64,000 bases of DNA. It comes from a bacterium. GTDB lineage: Bacteria > CLD3 > SB21. The notes below the pieces were generated by a model. It was not told the origin of the DNA. It saw only the letters and a program-made list of their open reading frames with translations, and did no database searches. Position numbers and translations under genes: made by a program. This document shows, in pieces, positions 5,503-48,836 of this stretch. The stretch is from NCBI GenBank assembly GCA_013360215.1, contig JABWCP010000001.1, positions 124,001-188,000 on the forward strand. The letters are read 5' to 3'. Position 1 is the first letter of the stretch; every line of letters starts with the position of its first letter.

Positions 5503-5775
5503 CTAATATTTAATCATAAAACCGGTGAATTCGGATGTTGCATGCACCCATTCGACGTTTACATTTGTTACACGCGCAAACGTCGGGCCCTTGCGAAGAT
5601 ATTGGAGAAATTGATCGAGTTCGGTGTCATGCCCTTCGACGACGCAGTATACATCGCCATTCTCGAGGTTTTTTACCCAACCGTTCAGTTTACATTCAGC
5701 GGCGCGCTTTTCCACAAATCGGCGATACCCGACACCTTGCACCATTCCGCTGACGGTGATGACGGCCCGTTTCAT
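5503..5775 (-). CDS. acyP: Acylphosphatase
   Basis: 90 residues, the usual size. It hydrolyses acyl phosphates such as carbamoyl or 1,3-bisphosphoglyceroyl phosphate. The signature VSGMVQGVGYRRFV contains the catalytic Arg, and GWVKNLENGDVYCVVEG contains the catalytic Asn. Its ATG overlaps the TGA of the preceding REC-GGDEF gene (ATGA), so the two are translationally coupled although no functional link is obvious. Confidence 0.92.
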   Translation of the reverse strand: MKRAVITVSGMVQGVGYRRFVEKRAAECKLNGWVKNLENGDVYCVVEGHDTELDQFLQYLRKGPTFARVTNVNVEWVHATSEFTGFMIKY

Positions 5776-6782
5776 CCTTTGATTTGCTTGTACTCCGGCA
5801 GATCCGAATAACGTACCGTCTGGTTACGACCATGTTCTTTAGCGTAGTATAAACCTTTATCGGCCCATTCAATCAACGTAAACTGGTCATTCATCAGATC
5901 GTCAGGAAGTGACGAAATACCGACGCTCACCGTCCTGCGAATGGAATTGGTCGCATCTTTAAATTCATGCTCTTCGACTTTTTTACGAATACGATCCGCC
6001 ACTACAAATGCATTATCAATATCCGTATCCGGAAGAATCGCAATAAATTCCTCGCCGCCAAAACGTCCGCAAATATCTACCAATCGCGCCGTTTCAAGAA
6101 TTATCGCGGCAATGTCCTTAAGCACCACATCGCCAAAGGCATGGCCATAGGTATCGTTTACTGATTTGAAATGATCCGCGTCAAACATGATAACGGATAA
6201 AGGACGCTTATAACGTACGGCACGACGAAATTCGTCATCGAGTTTTTTGTTGATGTATCGGCGGTTGTATAACTTGGTCAATTCATCCGTAACCGATAAT
6301 TCTTCAAGTTGACGGTTGGCGTTACGAAGCGAATCATTGAGTTGCTTGATGCGCAACATGGAACGAATACGCGCTTGCAATTCGCCCATATCGTAAGGTT
6401 TTGTGAGGTATTCATCGGCACCGCAATCAAGTCCTTCGATTTTGCTCATCAGTTCGCTTTTCGCCGTCAGAAGAATGATCGGAATATACTGACCTTCCTC
6501 GGTAGCTTTCACGCGTTTGCATACTTCGAAACCGTTCAATTTGGGCATCATGACATCCAAAAGAATAATGTCCGGTATCAATGCCTCCGCCTTATGCAGC
6601 GCTTCTTCGCCGTCCTTGGCCGTGTACACTTCGTACTTCATTTTGGATAAAAGAAGCTTGAGGATGTACAACCCGTCATCATCGTCATCCACGACCAATA
6701 CACGCGTCGGGCGTTTATTGTCTTCCGCGTTGCGCTGGGCTTCGTCTTCTTTGATTGTGTCTTTCGTCTGCAATTCCATCAT
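5772..6782 (-). CDS. Response regulator with diguanylate cyclase output (REC-GGDEF)
   Basis: 336 residues. The REC domain is at about 27-145 (acidic pocket VVDDDDD, phospho-acceptor in LLDVMMPKLNG, conserved Lys in LTKPYD). A short coiled linker (LNDSLRNANRQLEEL) leads to a GGDEF domain at about 170-325 (VTDELTKLYNRRY, DADHFKSVNDTYGH, active-site GGEEF in RFGGEEF). RLVD sits five residues before GGEEF, the position of the inhibitory c-di-GMP I-site RxxD. It is therefore predicted to make c-di-GMP under phosphorylation control and product inhibition, like PleD with a single receiver. No histidine kinase lies next to it. Confidence 0.92.
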   Translation of the reverse strand: MMELQTKDTIKEDEAQRNAEDNKRPTRVLVVDDDDDGLYILKLLLSKMKYEVYTAKDGEEALHKAEALIPDIILLDVMMPKLNGFEVCKRVKATEEGQYIPIILLTAKSELMSKIEGLDCGADEYLTKPYDMGELQARIRSMLRIKQLNDSLRNANRQLEELSVTDELTKLYNRRYINKKLDDEFRRAVRYKRPLSVIMFDADHFKSVNDTYGHAFGDVVLKDIAAIILETARLVDICGRFGGEEFIAILPDTDIDNAFVVADRIRKKVEEHEFKDATNSIRRTVSVGISSLPDDLMNDQFTLIEWADKGLYYAKEHGRNQTVRYSDLPEYKQIKG

Positions 6783-39765: not shown

Positions 39766-41649
39766 TCAAGCGGCTACGGTCGGCGCAGATTGTGATTTAG
39801 TTTTTGATTCTTTGGATTCCGCGATACCCGCTTCCATCCAACCGTATTTATTATTCAAAATATCTTTGGCCATGTTGTATTTAGCGTTGTCATCATTATT
39901 CCACATGGCTTTGAATGACACTTCGACGCGACGTCGTGCGTTACGGCAAAAAAGATCCGCAAGCTTCATCGCATCGGAATTACCTTCTTTGGCCATCTTG
40001 ACGGCACGCGACATCGTAGCCGACATAGCAAAAAGTTCGGCACCGATATCAACGGCGCGGAACAAGAATGCCTGTTTGTATGCCAGTTTAGCTTGATGAC
40101 GCATCATTCCGTGGAAAATCTCCCGGGATAATTTGCGTGTTTTGCGTTCGACAAAACGCATGTGCGTCGCGAGCGGACCAAATTCACTAAAACGTGGCCA
40201 CCGTCCCCAACCTAACCAGCGTGTCGGATACCAAATGCCATAAAACAGCGCAATCTTAGGCAGAGCTCCCAGTTTTTCACCGATAGAGGATTTGGGATCG
40301 ATCATTTTCCAAGCAACTTCCAAATGTTTATCTACGGCTTCCCGCGCAATAAACAAGCGCATAATTTCACTCGATCCTTCAAAAATCAAATTAATTCGAA
40401 AATCACGCATCATACGTTCAACAGCAACCGGATCTTCACCGCGTGCGCGTAAAGAATCGGCCGTTTCATATCCGCGGCCGCCGCGTATCTGCAGCGTATC
40501 ATCTACAATTTTCCAACCGGCTTCGGTATTATACATTTTACCGACAGCGGCCTCTAGGCGAATGTCCAACTTCTTATCCGCCATGGCTGTAGATAACGAA
40601 GCAACCGATTCCATGGCAAACGTCATGGAAGCCATATCGGCAATTTTTTGTGCGATGGCTTCATGTTTACCGATGGGTTGTCCCCACTGTACACGCTTGG
40701 AAGCCCATTCCCGCGCAACATGGAGGCATGCTTTCGCCGTTCCCGCCGCTCCCGCCGGCAGTGTCAATCGCCCGGTATTGAGCGTGATTAACGCCAACTT
40801 GAGACCTTTACCTCTACCCCAAATGATGTTTTCTTTGGGCACGCGCACGTCTTTGAATGACAGAACCGCATTTTCCAATGCTTTGAGACCCATGAAGTAA
40901 CAGCGATGATCTACTTTTACGCCGGGCCATTTGGTCTCAACGATAAACGCTGTGATCGCTCCGTCTTCAGGATGACGTGCCATCACAACGATGATATCAG
41001 CGATTGTACCGTTGGTACACCATAGTTTTTCACCATTGAGTATGTACGACTGACCGTCTTCGCTTTCAACAGCGGTGGTGTGCAACTTGGCAGGATCCGA
41101 ACCGGCTTCAGGTTCCGTCAGCGCAAACGCTGAAATTTCGCCTTTGGCTAATCGAGGCAGATACTTTTGTTTTTGTTCGTCGGTACCAAATAGCATCAGC
41201 GGTTGAGGTACGCCGATGGATTGATGTGCAGACAATAAGGCAATCACATTGCCATCTTTCGTACAGATCAATTCCATTATTTTATTATATTCGGCTTGCG
41301 AAAATTCCAAACCACCGTACTCTTTTTTGATCTTCATGCCGAACGCACCCATCGCCTTGAGCCGGTCGCGCACCGCCATGGGTATTTTTCCTTCACGATC
41401 GATCGCATCGGAATCCACTTCCTCTTCGATGAACTTCTTGAACTCGGTATAAAACTGCTGAAATTCGGGACGGTTAATTCCCTTGGGTTCCGGATACGGA
41501 TGAACTAAATCCAGACGAAGGTTACCTAAAAAAATTTCACGCAAAAAACTGGGATTTTCCCATTTGCTCTCGCGGGCGGATTCGGCTACTTCCCGAGCCT
41601 CTTCCTCGGTGACATGGCGCTTGCCGCTTTGTGCATCATGAGCTGACAT
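39766..41649 (-). CDS. Acyl-CoA dehydrogenase with extended C-terminus
   Basis: 627 residues from the ATG at 41649; an in-frame extension to 41712 has no ribosome site. Acyl-CoA dehydrogenase core with [12 protein letters not shown] (FAD/substrate loop), GEKLWCTNG and [15 protein letters not shown], whose Glu is the catalytic base (about residue 425). About 170 further residues follow, as in very-long-chain enzymes. It catalyses the first, FAD-dependent step of beta-oxidation. The FadJ-type enzyme at 44910 could do the next two steps. No electron-transfer flavoprotein genes are nearby. Confidence 0.88.
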
Positions 41650-41772
41650 TATCGGATTACCTTTCCTGTAATAACATATGTGATAAATAAAAAGCTTGTT
41701 TGTATAAATCAAATATCCAAATTCATTGCACTAAATTCAAATTAAAAATACGCCGTCAGACGGATATTACGC

Positions 41773-41839: not shown

Positions 41840-43810
41840 ATGTTCAATTTTTCTCGTACGCTGCTTCGTGATGTCATCTTATATGCCGTCCTCGTTGCTA
41901 TTTTTATCGCTATTTTTCTCATCGGAGAATACATCTCCGACAGTTACTTTCCGCGCACCAGCGACTATGTGATTTTTTTCTTCAAAGCTCTGGTTTTCAT
42001 CCTCATTTACGAGCCTATCCGTAAACTCACGGAACTCTATATCCGGAAAATCGTTTTTAGCTATTACTACCGTCGCCAGGAAGATCTCCGTGATTTGGAT
42101 GCCCGGTTGGTTTCCACGATGGGTTATCATGAAATGGCCGATATTATCACCGAACGGATTAGTGGATTGCTGAATGTCAAATACGCCGCGATTTACCTTC
42201 GCATCCCCGAATTTTTTTCATTGGTGAGTTCGTATGGCCGCAGTGACCTCATTACCAAACGTATTAAAGCCGACATGGCCGTTTATGATGCCTTGTTATC
42301 CGGCAAACGCGTATTCACAATAAATGAACTGTTTGTTATGCATCAGACCGTTTTAACCGATGATGCGTTAAAAGTTTTCAAACACGAAGGCTGCAAATAC
42401 ATCATACCGATGTTAAAAAAAGACGGCATTAGCGCCTTGCTCGTGTTGGGTGAAGAAACGCAGATTCGCTACGATCTGAGCGACGAAGATAAAAAAATCC
42501 TCTGGCAATCCATGCAACGCGTCGGCAATACGCTTGAGAGTACGCGCCTCTATAGTCAACTTCAAAAATCGCTCGTAGAAAAAGAAATCGTTCTAGAGAT
42601 TGCCAAAAAATTTAACGGTGAAATTCATACCGAAAAATTGCTCGATAATATTCTCGATGCCGTCAAATCCATCGTGCCGTACGATGCCGCCGGTATTTTC
42701 CTGGTGAATGAAGTGACGCAAGAAATCGAAAGTGCGGTCATGCGCGGTTACGATCCTGAAGTAATGGAACAAATTCGCATGAAAGTCGGAACCGGTCTGA
42801 TCGGTCACGTTGCGATCATTGGCAAACCGGTCATCGTAAAAGACGTCAATTTTGATGAACACTACGTCAGTGTTCGTGACAATACCCGATCCGAAATAAC
42901 AATTCCCATCAAGGACAGCGACCGTACCATCGGTGTACTCAATCTCGAAAGTGACATGCTCGGCGCTTACCATGAGGGATTTCTCGATATACTCAATGCA
43001 ATCGCCGGCGAAGCCGGAATTGCCATACAAAATGCACAGCTCAACGAGCAAGCCATTCGCAATGAAGAATTGCAAAAAGAACTTAAAATTGCAGGTAAGA
43101 TCCAGCAGGCTATCCTCCCGCAGCAGTTACCGCGTATTCCCAATCTGCAAATAACGGCCAAAAGCCTTCCCTGTTATGCTGTCGGCGGCGACTTCTATGA
43201 TGTGCTAAAGCTTAATGATCATCAGGTCACGGTTTCCATCGGCGATGTATCCGGAAAAGGCGTACCGGGCGCCATCATGATGTCCGTATTGTACACCAGC
43301 TATCGTGGCATGGTGCACGAATACAAAACGAGCTGGGAAGTCGTTAATAGTTTGAACAACCTCCTTTGCACACATACGGCCGAAGGCCGCTATGCAACGT
43401 TCTTTCACTGCATAATTGATTTTGAACGCCTCATCATGTATTATACGAATGCGGGCCATAATCCGCCGATGATCCGTAAAGAAAGCGGCGAATGGATCAA
43501 ACTTCGGGAGGGCGGCATTGTATTGGGATTCATCCCCGATCAGGATTATCGTCAGATGACCCAGCCGCTTGATCCGGGCGACATCATCGTATTGTACACA
43601 GACGGGATTACGGAAGTATTCAGCGAAGCCGAAGAATTGTTCGGCGAAGAGCGTCTCAAAGAGGTTATAGAAAATAACCGTGAAACTTCTGCTAAAAATA
43701 TTCAGGACGAAATCATCGCCGCGGTCAGCACATTTGCCCCGGATCAGGAAATGCAACAGGACGATATTACACTCGTGATTATTAAAATCGAAAAAAGTAC
43801 ATTAGTATAA
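41840..43810 (+). CDS. Membrane GAF-SpoIIE (PP2C) serine phosphatase, RsbU-like
   Basis: 656 residues. Two N-terminal membrane helices (about 9-31 and 46-62), a GAF-like region (about 80-230), a clearer GAF at about 260-400 (GIFLVNEVTQEIESAVMRGYD in pieces), a coiled linker (NEELQKELKIAGKIQQAILPQQ in pieces) and a SpoIIE domain at about 440-650 (GGDFYD, IGDVSGKGVPGAIMM, NAGHNPP, LYTDGITE). It should dephosphorylate a STAS anti-anti-sigma factor. The STAS gene at 55687 is a candidate substrate, though a second phosphatase sits closer to it. Confidence 0.9.
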   Translation: MFNFSRTLLRDVILYAVLVAIFIAIFLIGEYISDSYFPRTSDYVIFFFKALVFILIYEPIRKLTELYIRKIVFSYYYRRQEDLRDLDARLVSTMGYHEMADIITERISGLLNVKYAAIYLRIPEFFSLVSSYGRSDLITKRIKADMAVYDALLSGKRVFTINELFVMHQTVLTDDALKVFKHEGCKYIIPMLKKDGISALLVLGEETQIRYDLSDEDKKILWQSMQRVGNTLESTRLYSQLQKSLVEKEIVLEIAKKFNGEIHTEKLLDNILDAVKSIVPYDAAGIFLVNEVTQEIESAVMRGYDPEVMEQIRMKVGTGLIGHVAIIGKPVIVKDVNFDEHYVSVRDNTRSEITIPIKDSDRTIGVLNLESDMLGAYHEGFLDILNAIAGEAGIAIQNAQLNEQAIRNEELQKELKIAGKIQQAILPQQLPRIPNLQITAKSLPCYAVGGDFYDVLKLNDHQVTVSIGDVSGKGVPGAIMMSVLYTSYRGMVHEYKTSWEVVNSLNNLLCTHTAEGRYATFFHCIIDFERLIMYYTNAGHNPPMIRKESGEWIKLREGGIVLGFIPDQDYRQMTQPLDPGDIIVLYTDGITEVFSEAEELFGEERLKEVIENNRETSAKNIQDEIIAAVSTFAPDQEMQQDDITLVIIKIEKSTLV

Positions 43811-43838: not shown

Positions 43839-44834
43839 ATGGCATCGGTTGACATCAAAGCACTGAACGAGCGCATTTATATCGAAAGCGGATTCATTGA
43901 CAACATTCTCAAAGAAGTCGGCCTCGTTATCGTCGGTCAAAAGTATATGATCGAGCGTTTATTAGTAGCGCTTTTGTCCAACGGCCACGTTCTGCTCGAA
44001 GGCGTGCCGGGTCTTGCGAAAACCTTAGCGATCAAAACATTGTCGGAAACGATTCATACCAAGTTTCAACGTATTCAGTTCACGCCCGACCTTTTGCCCG
44101 CCGATTTGCTCGGAACGCTGATTTACAATCAGAAAGAAGGAAATTTTTATACCCGCAAAGGACCGGTTTTTTCCAATCTTATTTTAGCGGATGAAATCAA
44201 CCGTTCACCGGCCAAAGTGCAAAGCGCGTTGCTTGAAGCTATGCAAGAGCGTCAGGTTACCATCAGCGATACGACGTATCCTCTGCCGGAACCTTTTCTC
44301 GTATTGGCGACGCAAAATCCCGTCGAGCAGGAAGGAACATATCCTCTGCCCGAAGCGCAAGTGGATCGCTTTATGCTCAAACTCAAGGTGGGTTATCCTA
44401 CGCGCGATGAGGAATTGGAGATTATACGCCGCAATGCAACGACGGCACCGCAACTGAAAGTTAAGCCGGTGGCGACCCCGGAAGAAATTTTACGCGCACG
44501 CAAAACGGTAAACGAAATATACATGGACGAAAAAATCGAAAACTATATTGTCGATCTCGTTTTTGCGACACGTCAACCGGAAAAATATGGATTGCCGGAG
44601 TTAAAGCCGCTGATTCACTTTGGCGCTTCACCGCGCGCATCCATCAGTTTGACCCTTGCATCCAAAGCGTATGCATTTCTCAAGCGTCGGGGTTATGTGA
44701 TCCCGGAAGACGTACGCGCCGTGGCTATGGATGTATTGCGTCATCGCGTTATACTCACTTACGAGGCCGAAGCCGAGGAACTGACTACCGAAGAAATCAT
44801 TACGCAAGTTTTGAATAAAGTCGAAGTACCGTAA
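43839..44834 (+). CDS. MoxR-family AAA+ ATPase
   Basis: 331 residues. Walker A GVPGLAKT, Walker B LILADEINRSPAKVQ, sensor region VLATQNPVEQEGTYPLPEAQVDRF (in pieces) and sensor 2 FGASPRASI. MoxR ATPases act as chaperones that insert cofactors or activate complexes, usually with DUF58 and VWA genes; none follows here, which is unusual. AAGGGA stands six bases before the ATG, 28 bases after the phosphatase gene. Confidence 0.92.
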   Translation: MASVDIKALNERIYIESGFIDNILKEVGLVIVGQKYMIERLLVALLSNGHVLLEGVPGLAKTLAIKTLSETIHTKFQRIQFTPDLLPADLLGTLIYNQKEGNFYTRKGPVFSNLILADEINRSPAKVQSALLEAMQERQVTISDTTYPLPEPFLVLATQNPVEQEGTYPLPEAQVDRFMLKLKVGYPTRDEELEIIRRNATTAPQLKVKPVATPEEILRARKTVNEIYMDEKIENYIVDLVFATRQPEKYGLPELKPLIHFGASPRASISLTLASKAYAFLKRRGYVIPEDVRAVAMDVLRHRVILTYEAEAEELTTEEIITQVLNKVEVP

Positions 44835-44909: not shown

Positions 44910-47048
44910 ATGGATTCCTTATTTAGTCTTAAGCTGAAGATCGAAGGCGGTCTGGCATGGCTGACCTTTGACTATCCCGGTGAAAAATTTAATAAACTTT
45001 CCACCCCCGTCATGCAAGCGCTCAATCAGGCTTTGGATTATTTGGCAAGTCAGTCGCCATCTATACAGGGCTGTATCATTCACAGTGCCAAAGACGGTAT
45101 TTTTATCGTCGGTGCGGATATTGATGAAATCAAAAATATCACCGACCCCAAAATCGCGGAAGCCGCCGCCGCGCAGGGACAAGCCATTTTCACGAAAATA
45201 GAAAAACTTCCCTTCCCGACCGTTTGCCTTATTCATGGCGCGTGTATGGGAGGTGGTACGGAGTTAGCACTGGCCTGCACCTACCGTATTGCAACCGATT
45301 CACCTAAAACAAAAATCGGCCTTCCGGAAGTCATGATCGGCATAGTGCCGGGTTTTGGCGGAACCCAGCGTCTGCCTCGTCTTATAGGCCTCCAGCGTGC
45401 CCTCCCCATGATTTTGTCAGGTAAAGCTTACGACGGGAAAAATGCATTGAGGAACGGTGTTGTAGACAAAGTCATACCGTCTGAATTTGCCGAACGCTAT
45501 GCTGCCGCTTTTGTACAAGAAATTATTTCCGGAAAAACAACCGGGTATGTCAAACGACGTAAACCATCGGGGCTCATTAATTTTTTACTCGAATCCGTTG
45601 GCAAACCGCTGATCTACAGTCAGGCGCGTAAAAGTGTACTCAAAGAAAGCAAAGGCCAATACCCCGCTCCGTTAAAAGCATTAGACGCTGTACGCGAAGG
45701 GTATTCCCAATCGCTTGAAAACGGATTGAAAATTGAGGCGCGTTATTTAGGCGAAATGGTTGCTTCTCCGATTTCTAAAAATCTGATACGGATTTTTAGG
45801 CTCACTGAGCAAATTAAAAAAGATACAGGGGTAACCGACAAATCCGTAAAATCGCCCGAGATACGTTATGCCGGTGTACTGGGCGCAGGCGTCATGGGTG
45901 GCGGAATCGCCTATCTTTTTTCTAATTATGATATCGAAGTACGACTAAAAGACATCAACCATCAAGCAATCACATTGGGTCTCGACTCAGCTAAAAAAGT
46001 ATATGAGCGGGCATTAAAACGACGTAAACTAACCAAACAAACGTTCAACAGGAAAATGTCCTATATCACCGGCGCATTGGATTATTCCGGTTTTCGCCGT
46101 TGCGATCTGGTTGTCGAAGCCATCGTCGAAAATATGGATGTGAAGAAAAAAGTTATCGGTGAACTTTCAAGTCACGTCAGCGATAGCTGTATCGTAGCGT
46201 CCAATACGTCTTCCTTATCCATAACCGAAATGGCGAAGGCTTATAAAAATCCCGACAAATTTATCGGAATGCATTTTTTTAACCCGGTACACAAAATGCC
46301 GCTCGTCGAAATTATTCGCGGAGAAAAAACATCGGATGCGACAGTGGCCACGATCTATGCGTTGTCAAAAAAGCTCGGTAAACAGCCTATCGTCGTAAAG
46401 GACGGACCGGGGTTTCTTGTCAATCGTCTCTTGATGCCCTATCTCAATGAAGCCGGGCATCTGATGGAGCAAGGCGTTACCATCGAACTATTGGATAAAA
46501 CGATGCTCGATTTCGGTATGCCGATGGGTCCGGCGCTACTTATCGATGAAGTCGGAATTGACGTAGCGTACAAAGTCGGCCATATTTTTTACGATGCATT
46601 CGGCAAACGCGTACAACCGTCCCGCGTTGTCGAAAAACTTTATGAGGCCAAACGTCTCGGAAAAAAAGGAAAATTAGGATTTTATAAACACGCTGACGAC
46701 AAACCTCAGGTTGATCCTGCCGTCTACGCGCTTATAGGAGCAAATCAAACTTCGACTATCCGTTCAGAAGAAATGGTCGAACGCATGACCTATACGATGA
46801 TCAACGAAGCGGCCATGTGTTTGGCCGAAGGAATCGTCAGCCAACCTAGCGATGTCGAAATCGGGATGATCTTCGGAACAGGTTTTGCTCCATTTCGCGG
46901 TGGCCTTTTGCGATACGCCGACAGCGAAGGTCTTGATAAAATAGTTGCACAGCTTGAAAAATATGCGCACACTTACGGCGTACGTTTTACCCCATGCGAT
47001 TATTTGGTACAGTTGCAAAAATCAGGTAAAAAATTTTATAACGAATAA
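44910..47048 (+). CDS. fadJ: Bifunctional enoyl-CoA hydratase / 3-hydroxyacyl-CoA dehydrogenase
   Basis: 712 residues. N-terminal crotonase domain with the oxyanion-hole region [14 protein letters not shown] and catalytic Glu residues in GGGTEL and [16 protein letters not shown]-terminal dehydrogenase with Rossmann [16 protein letters not shown] (about 318-333) and catalytic His in [17 protein letters not shown]. It performs steps two and three of beta-oxidation. No thiolase gene is in the window. FadJ rather than FadB is chosen only by general resemblance. Confidence 0.93.
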
Positions 47049-47081: not shown

Positions 47082-47240
47082 ATGCTTGGCGATAAACTCA
47101 TCAGCAAAGGTGTTATCAATCAATCCCAACTGGACGAATGCCTCAAAGAACAACAAAGCAGCGGTAAAAAACTCGGTGAAGTTATCATCGCCAAAGGCTA
47201 TGCGACACAAGCTCAGATTGATGCCGCTTTAGCCGGATAG
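47082..47240 (+). CDS. Stand-alone MshEN-type mini-protein (candidate c-di-GMP binder)
   Basis: 52 residues, ATG at 47082 with AAAGGA seven bases upstream, 33 bases after fadJ. It consists of two copies of one motif: LGDKLISKGVINQSQLDECL..Q and LGEVIIAKGYATQAQIDAAL, joined by the five residues SSGKK. This is the plan of MshEN (T2SSE N-terminal) domains, LGxxLxxxGxLxxxxLxxxLxxQ twice with a 5-residue spacer, which bind c-di-GMP at the front of GspE/PilB-type ATPases. Here nothing follows. The second copy lacks the closing Gln and the Arg before LG is absent or Lys, so binding is uncertain. Confidence 0.75.
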   Translation: MLGDKLISKGVINQSQLDECLKEQQSSGKKLGEVIIAKGYATQAQIDAALAG

Positions 47241-47327
47241 ACTTCGGATTATCGCTTGAAATCTTTTGCACAGCCGCGTATATTCGACTGCATTTAACAT
47301 TTCATTTTATATTCAGGCCCAGCCCTT

Positions 47328-48836
47328 ATGGATAAAGACCTCATCGCTATTCAAGAAGCACGCGACATCGCCCGTGCAGCTAAAGCCGCACAAAAAGAGT
47401 TTGCAAAATTTACGCAACAAAAAGTAGATGCCCTTGTCAAAGCGATGGCCGATGCCGGGCTGGCCGCCGCAGATCGTTTGGCGCGTATGGCCGCCGACGA
47501 AACGCGTATGGGACGTTATGAGGATAAGATTGTAAAAAATCAATTTGGCACACGCGATGTGTACGAATACATCAAGGACATGAAAACGGTCGGTGTCTTG
47601 CGGTACGATGATAAACTCAAATTTTATGAGATCGGTACTCCGATGGGTGTCGTATGCGCTATTATCCCTACGACCAATCCCACATCTACCGTGATGTATA
47701 AAATTTTAATATCGCTTAAAGCCGGTAATGCCATCGCTATCGCTCCCCATCCGCGTGCAGCCAAGTGTACTTATGAAGCCATGCGCATCCTCCGCGACGT
47801 TGCCGAATCTATGGGCGCACCCAAAGGTCTCATCGGTTGCATCGAACATCCGACGCTTGAAGGAACACAAGCATTGATGAAGTGCCCGGAGACTTCGGTG
47901 ATTTTGGCTACCGGCGGGCCCGGTATTGTACGCGAAGCGTACAGTTCGGGTAAACCGGCTCTGGGCGTAGGCTCTGGCAATGTCCCCGCTTTTATCGAAA
48001 AAACGGCGAATGTTAAAAAAGCTATCGCCGATATCGTCGCGGGTAAATGTTTCGATTACGGTTTATTATGTTCATCTGAAAACTCCATCGTTGCCGACGC
48101 CGCACTGCGTGATCAGGTTATTGCTGAATTGAAAGCCAATCGCGCATATGTTTGCAATAACGAAGAAAAAATTAAGCTTCAGCAACTGATGTTTCCTAAA
48201 GGAAAATTGAATACCCAGATTATTGGCCTTCCTGCACCTAAAATTGCGCAAATGGCCGGTGTAGCGGCACCATCGGATGCGACGGTCCTGGTTGTTCCTT
48301 GCGAAAAAGTCGGCAAAGAAGAACCCCTGTCAGCCGAAAAACTTTCACCGGTATTATCGCTTTTTTGGGTAAACGGGTGGGAACAAGGCTGTGACCGCGC
48401 GCTGGAAATTCTCAATTTCGGCGGTATAGGACATACGATGTCCATTCATTCGCAGGATAATGATGTGATCATGAAGTTCGGCCTCGAAAAACCGGCCTTC
48501 CGTATTTGCGTGAACACCGTTTCCACCTTAGGCGCTGTCGGTTACACGACCGGCCTCGCACCGTCCATGACACTCGGACCCGGCACACTCGGAGGCTCTA
48601 TCACGACGGATAATATCATGCCGTATCATTTGATGAACGTAAAGCGGCTTGCTTTCGAAATACGCCCGTTCAAATCTTCTTTAGTTCACGGCAATACCGA
48701 ATCACCGGCAAAAGATACAAGCAAAAAAACCGCCGAAATATCGCCTGCCCCCGTTTCTTCTTCGCCTAAGAATGATTCTTTGTCGGAAAAAGAAATAGAT
48801 AAAATCGTAGAGGAATTCATTCGCAGCAGAAAATAG
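47328..48836 (+). CDS. CoA-acylating aldehyde dehydrogenase (EutE/PduP-like) with C-terminal helical tail
   Basis: 502 residues. It interconverts an aldehyde and acyl-CoA with NAD+. Catalytic Cys248 lies in YGLLCSSEN; PTTNPTSTV and ATGGPGIV bind the nucleotide. The N-terminal helix (EARDIARAAKAAQKEFAKF) is typical of microcompartment-type enzymes. After the core ends at EIRPF a 54-residue tail follows: a Pro/Ser/Lys-rich linker (SPAPVSSSPKND) and a terminal amphipathic helix (SEKEIDKIVEEFIRSRK), the layout of a shell-targeting encapsulation peptide. No shell-protein or alcohol dehydrogenase gene is in the window. Confidence 0.9.
   Translation: MDKDLIAIQEARDIARAAKAAQKEFAKFTQQKVDALVKAMADAGLAAADRLARMAADETRMGRYEDKIVKNQFGTRDVYEYIKDMKTVGVLRYDDKLKFYEIGTPMGVVCAIIPTTNPTSTVMYKILISLKAGNAIAIAPHPRAAKCTYEAMRILRDVAESMGAPKGLIGCIEHPTLEGTQALMKCPETSVILATGGPGIVREAYSSGKPALGVGSGNVPAFIEKTANVKKAIADIVAGKCFDYGLLCSSENSIVADAALRDQVIAELKANRAYVCNNEEKIKLQQLMFPKGKLNTQIIGLPAPKIAQMAGVAAPSDATVLVVPCEKVGKEEPLSAEKLSPVLSLFWVNGWEQGCDRALEILNFGGIGHTMSIHSQDNDVIMKFGLEKPAFRICVNTVSTLGAVGYTTGLAPSMTLGPGTLGGSITTDNIMPYHLMNVKRLAFEIRPFKSSLVHGNTESPAKDTSKKTAEISPAPVSSSPKNDSLSEKEIDKIVEEFIRSRK

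Follow-up and report, generated by a model that had tools for sequence, protein, structure and literature searches.

The stretch of 64,000 nucleotides analyzed here (hereafter the window; contig JABWCP010000001.1) carries a 52-codon gene that begins with ATG, located between genes for fatty-acid and aldehyde metabolism (Table 1). Its product, MLGDKLISKGVINQSQLDECLKEQQSSGKKLGEVIIAKGYATQAQIDAALAG, matched NCBIfam NF053729.1, the model of the MshE-type c-di-GMP-binding domain, over residues 2-51 of 52 with an E-value of 1e-17 (63.7 bits; the cut-off is 38), and the initial annotation was thus right to regard the protein as an MshEN domain and nothing else. NF053729 (c-di-GMP_motif, MshE-related) describes a full domain of 53 residues, of which positions 2-51 were matched; it is a domain model, and its strong matches in the genomes searched were nearly all in long frames. 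In phmmer, VcMshE (5htl) and Thermus PilF (6f8l) were retrieved at 5e-7 and 7.5e-10, respectively, and, as judged from the NF053729, MshE and PilF sequence matches, chance is no reasonable explanation for the resemblance. The Pfam search of the mini-protein yielded nothing above the Pfam cut-off, and the Rfam search of the window no RNA match. The ribosome site claimed initially corresponds to AAAGGA, which stands a few bases before the ATG.

Table 1. Positions of the features of the window referred to in the text
Feature	Position	Strand	Evidence or remark
REC-GGDEF diguanylate cyclase	5772..6782	-	GGDEF E = 3e-43; intact GGEEF; RxxD inhibitory-site motif
Acyl-CoA dehydrogenase-like ORF	39766..41712	-	judged by sequence alone; oriented divergently to the SpoIIE-MoxR-fadJ run
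GAF-SpoIIE (PP2C-type) phosphatase, first of run	41840..43810	+	conserved in relatives where contig reaches
MoxR-type AAA ATPase, upstream, same gene run	43839..44834	+	conserved in relatives
FadJ-type enoyl-CoA hydratase / 3-hydroxyacyl-CoA dehydrogenase (multifunctional), 33 nt gap to mini-gene	44910..47048	+	upstream neighbour in 7/7
Shine-Dalgarno-like AAAGGA 5' of start codon	47069..47074 (+/- about one base)	+	sequence
MshEN_N mini-protein gene, free-standing, 52 aa	47082..47240	+	NF053729 match, family conservation, third-position bias, four-helix model
Motif I, residues 1-24, MLGDKLISKGVINQSQLDECLKEQ; Arg9 -> Met1, Gln32 = Gln24	47082..47153	+	alignment to MshE and PilF
Motif II, residues 30-52 and the stop codon, KLGEVIIAKGYATQAQIDAALAG; Arg38 -> Lys30, Gln61 -> stop codon	47169..47240	+	alignment
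Promoter-like TTGAAA-17-TATATT, 10/12 match, weak	47256..47284	+	such sites no more frequent than in shuffled sequence
EutE-type acylating aldehyde dehydrogenase	47328..48836	+	probably separate transcription unit

The FadJ-type and EutE-type genes were found on either side of the mini-gene as had been described. The mini-gene is probably the last member of the run comprising the SpoIIE, MoxR and fadJ genes, and the aldehyde dehydrogenase gene, separated by a gap of 87 nt, probably forms a unit of its own. In all six relatives (6/6), an intrinsic terminator, namely a stable hairpin (about -18 to -26 kcal/mol) with a T-tract, starts within about 13-21 nt of the stop codon of the mini-gene, and we therefore disfavour a single operon including the aldehyde dehydrogenase gene. 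No terminator hairpin was found in the corresponding gap of the window, so that read-through into the aldehyde dehydrogenase gene is possible in this genome.

The aldehyde dehydrogenase ends, past a variable linker, in an amphipathic helix, LSEKEIDKIVEEFIRSRK, which is conserved and resembles an encapsulation peptide of microcompartments. Each of the nine genomes of the phylum carries BMC shell genes; in that of the window, they lie on other contigs. One of them (L126:6141-8029; G000:C8) codes for a two-domain BMC shell protein and stands beside a gene for an RnfC/PduS-like iron-sulfur flavoprotein; the genes upstream resemble those for RpiB and tryptophan 2,3-dioxygenase (both named solely by their sequences). 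This represents a dispersed microcompartment locus.

Conservation and selection

We sampled nine genomes of the phylum, seven belonging to the GTDB family of the window (four genera) and two to its sister family. The mini-gene was intact in 7/7 genomes of the family, constantly located directly after fadJ, and preceded in all seven by a purine-rich ribosome site upstream of its own start codon. The mini-proteins of the six relatives were 67-73% identical to that of the window. The aldehyde dehydrogenase gene followed on the 3' side wherever the contig reached (the G001 contig ends shortly past the mini-gene), and the intergenic DNA flanking the mini-gene aligned poorly. In the two genomes of the sister family (G007 and G008), the mini-gene was not found, and 3-hydroxyacyl-CoA dehydrogenase matches were only partial.

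Divergence was assessed by codon-position counts, and NG86/YN00 rates were obtained for a minority of the pairs. All 12 differences between G003 and G005, and 22 of the 24 between G002 and G004, fell on third codon positions; if the positions were equal, such biases would arise by chance with probabilities of about 2e-6 and 4e-9, respectively. For the latter pair, dN was about 0.009 as opposed to a dS above 1. The mini-gene is under purifying selection.

These results bear on the possibility, which the initial annotation had raised against its own proposal, that the frame is untranslated or is a fragment left by the decay of a GspE/PilB-type gene. The frame is indeed short, and the last residue of its second motif is absent. 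Nevertheless, decay would hardly leave a gene that has its own start codon and ribosome site, is intact in seven genomes belonging to four genera, and diverges with so strong a bias to third positions. There is no remnant of an ATPase beside it: the 52-aa protein has no T2SSE ATPase domain, and the neighbouring genes code for FadJ and an aldehyde dehydrogenase. Because of the conservation and the third-position bias, we reject the decayed fragment; to it, or to an untranslated frame, we concede only a very slight probability. Altogether, the mini-gene is confirmed as real, coding for a minimal, free-standing and conserved MshEN_N protein of a known domain kind. A short match in G001:C472 was set aside as a contig-edge truncation. 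An origin from a mobile element was likewise rejected, as the plasmid matches were all long ATPases, and the two matches in phage collections were weak and in unannotated records.

Predicted fold and ligand positions

The AlphaFold model, built with 20 aligned sequences, comprised four helices with a mean pLDDT of 93. In VIA-align, all 52 residues of this model were superimposed on c-di-GMP-bound MshE (5htl) with a Z of 10.6 and an rmsd of 0.7 Å, and the best PDB matches in Foldseek were c-di-GMP-bound MshE and PilF GSPII-B (TM 0.90-0.93). The Foldseek E-values were modest (0.015 at best), as expected for a protein so short. The mini-protein is thus predicted to adopt the four-helix MshEN_N fold, albeit the shared fold alone is no demonstration of ligand binding. 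Class II fumarase has a C-terminal domain (Pfam FumaraseC_C) with similarly arranged helices, to which the mini-protein showed a weak profile match (E = 4.5e-4, below the cut-off). The similarity is lower and there is no ligand motif, and the structural Z of about 7.4 is reachable by chance for small helical bundles; the likeness may reflect either a remote relationship or an arrangement of helices that is common.

The mini-protein shares with MshE of Vibrio cholerae the four-helix fold, the two 24-residue motifs and the 5-residue spacer, but has neither the MshEN_C subdomain nor the ATPase, and bears Met at the position of Arg9 and a stop codon at that of Gln61. In the numbering used here, Arg9 of VcMshE corresponds to Met1. 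The spacer (QSSGK, residues 25-29) is exactly five residues long, as claimed initially, and motif II has 23 of its 24 residues. Among the 12 ligand positions named for MshE (PMC5013675), eight are identical in the mini-protein, namely Leu2, Gly3, Leu17, Leu21, Gln24, Leu31, Gly32 and Leu50 (Leu10, Gly11, Leu25, Leu29, Gln32, Leu39, Gly40 and Leu58 of MshE, respectively). In the alignment, the remaining four are changed: Lys30 for Arg38 and Ile46 for Leu54 are conservative, Met1 is a hydrophobic residue in place of Arg9, and Gln61 is absent, as the stop codon stands exactly at its position. Thus, the leading Arg is missing as had been stated, but it is in motif II alone that the final Gln is lacking, motif I having kept its own. 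All seven orthologues have the Met and the Lys and are devoid of the second Gln, and five of the seven have Ile at the position of Leu31.

GSPII-B of Thermus thermophilus PilF (8pdk, 8pe0 and 9glg) is about 37% identical to the mini-protein (rmsd 0.8). Its motifs start with Lys and Leu and those of the mini-protein with Met and Lys, neither having Arg. GSPII-B resides within an ATPase of 889 residues and keeps both Gln, whereas the mini-protein is free and has lost the second. In GSPII-B, the KD was 6 nM for the wild type (Lys), 2 nM for K167L and 150 nM for K167R (PMC11731258). As these K and L variants bind tightly, the lack of the leading Arg, put forward initially as an objection to binding, is a weak caveat. 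The Q218E change at the position of MshE Gln61 raised the KD from 6 to 460 nM, a 77-fold loss with binding retained, while changing both Gln together abolished binding (PMC11731258). A Leu-to-Ile change in the hydrophobic clusters cost only about 2.4-fold in affinity (PMC12002112). Furthermore, VcMshE 1-62, the corresponding subdomain, binds c-di-GMP by itself at 0.35 uM (PMC5013675), and the C-terminal MshEN subdomain is therefore dispensable.

By analogy with these proteins, the missing second Gln should lower the affinity for c-di-GMP without necessarily abolishing it; as this phosphate-contacting residue is absent, the affinity is probably below that of canonical MshEN. Binding of c-di-GMP by the mini-protein is plausible, and the chance that it occurs at a useful affinity is about even. 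Gln24 is kept, as are both backbone Gly sites and the two Leu/Ile clusters that stack on the guanines. We infer that the C-terminal carboxylate would come near the expected position of a ligand phosphate, which speaks against a receptor.

The same evidence has to be weighed for a protein that has kept the MshEN_N fold and lost c-di-GMP binding, serving as a helical interaction module, for instance an adaptor or stabiliser of FadJ or MoxR. We consider this a substantial possibility, albeit one that falls somewhat short of an even chance. Arg9 and Gln61 are lost in 7/7 orthologues, and GSPII-A of Thermus, in which both Gln positions and one Arg are changed, is a folded domain that does not bind c-di-GMP (PMC12002112). 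The fold also matches the PilB-PilZ complex structures (7lkm, 7lkn and 7lko; Z 8.7-8.9), and the bundle at the N-terminus of Xanthomonas PilB, which is related and was solved with PilZ, may be such a module. On the other hand, the other ligand-facing positions are retained, among them Gln24, the Gly at both sites and the two hydrophobic clusters, and the published data show that the replacement of Arg and the change of a single Gln are tolerated.

Free-standing MshEN proteins in other genomes

A search with the family profile over 386 genomes (threshold 1e-9) found MshEN matches in 114, mostly inside long open frames. Short free-standing frames outside the family were few (G294, G315 and G196); a short frame in G239 was discarded as it seems to belong to a gene that is larger or broken. 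The gene of the G294 protein (L114:5073-5228, minus strand; 51 aa) is flanked by mutS on one side and on the other by a weakly receiver-like gene, which is followed by mutL. This protein has neither Gln, a point in favour of free MshEN modules without the ligand. The class of G294 is represented by two sampled genomes, and the gene was not found in the other; its conservation is thus not shown. In contrast to the mini-protein of the window, the 65-aa protein of G315 (L116:4911-5108) keeps both Gln, and is for that reason the better candidate for tight binding; its neighbours are different as well.

In another phylum, the Spirochaetes MAG UWPOB_SPIRO2 (L047) possesses a 52-aa mini-protein 67% identical to that of the window, with a GAGGAGGT site and unrelated neighbours. 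L047 and L114 (51-52 residues) have the start of the motif and the place of the stop in common with the mini-protein, while their neighbours differ. For a copy found in a SAR324 MAG, the match was confined to residues 1-38. With FadJ of the window as the query, no match at E <= 1e-50 was obtained in the Spirochaetes and SAR324 MAGs (G098 and G099). Stand-alone MshEN mini-proteins, proposed initially as worth seeking, do occur elsewhere (the Spirochaetes MAG, G294, G315 and G196), and the different neighbours together with the lack of FadJ matches suggest that the free form is recurrent with no general tie to beta-oxidation. No report on free-standing MshEN proteins was recognised in a literature search that covered few subscription journals.

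Possible roles of the mini-protein

The MshEN domain, a widespread receptor of c-di-GMP, is known from large proteins of which it forms a part, and such proteins are encoded in the genome of the window. One is a CheA-like hybrid kinase (L042:2928-5849, minus strand; G000:C39) with two Hpt, HATPase, CheW and REC domains, in which an MshEN segment lies between the Hpt and kinase parts, and another is a DUF4388 protein that matches MshEN in part. The window also encodes, in agreement with the initial annotation, a c-di-GMP-making protein, namely the active-looking diguanylate cyclase in Table 1. The diguanylate cyclase and the CheA-like and DUF4388 MshEN proteins make c-di-GMP signalling plausible in this organism.

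We favour, with a confidence that stops just short of even, the reading that the product of the mini-gene is a free, minimal MshEN_N bundle that binds c-di-GMP and acts in trans on a partner protein. c-di-GMP would be bound, probably more weakly than by canonical MshEN, with its bases capped by Met1 and Lys30. The ligand may then alter the surface or the stability of the mini-protein, which would dock on, or leave, its partner. The MshEN domain covalently attached in pilus ATPases is thought to act likewise. FadJ and MoxR are the first candidates for the partner, because their genes adjoin the mini-gene.

A more specific version, in which a diffusible single-domain MshEN receptor binds FadJ or MoxR in response to c-di-GMP and controls it allosterically, appears unlikely at present. 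The regulator of metabolism envisaged initially loses its tie to the aldehyde dehydrogenase with the terminators of the six relatives; what stands is a beta-oxidation role read from the position in the operon, which is a weak reading, and a role in fatty-acid metabolism deduced from the gene order is a guess. The mini-protein might alternatively buffer c-di-GMP or compete with full-length MshEN proteins such as the CheA-type hybrid kinase. The genome does offer full-length targets to mimic in its CheA-like and DUF4388 proteins, but both high expression and high affinity would be required, and the tight synteny with fadJ would be left unexplained; we regard this role as improbable.

If c-di-GMP does control FadJ or MoxR through the mini-protein, a second messenger of lifestyle would be coupled directly to fatty-acid degradation. 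As a 52-mer, the protein is accessible by peptide synthesis, so that binding is directly testable, and it constitutes a natural test of the contribution of the second Gln. A conserved, free MshEN of 52 residues would rank among the smallest c-di-GMP receptor candidates, and MshEN in this free form could act in trans on targets beyond pili and secretion.
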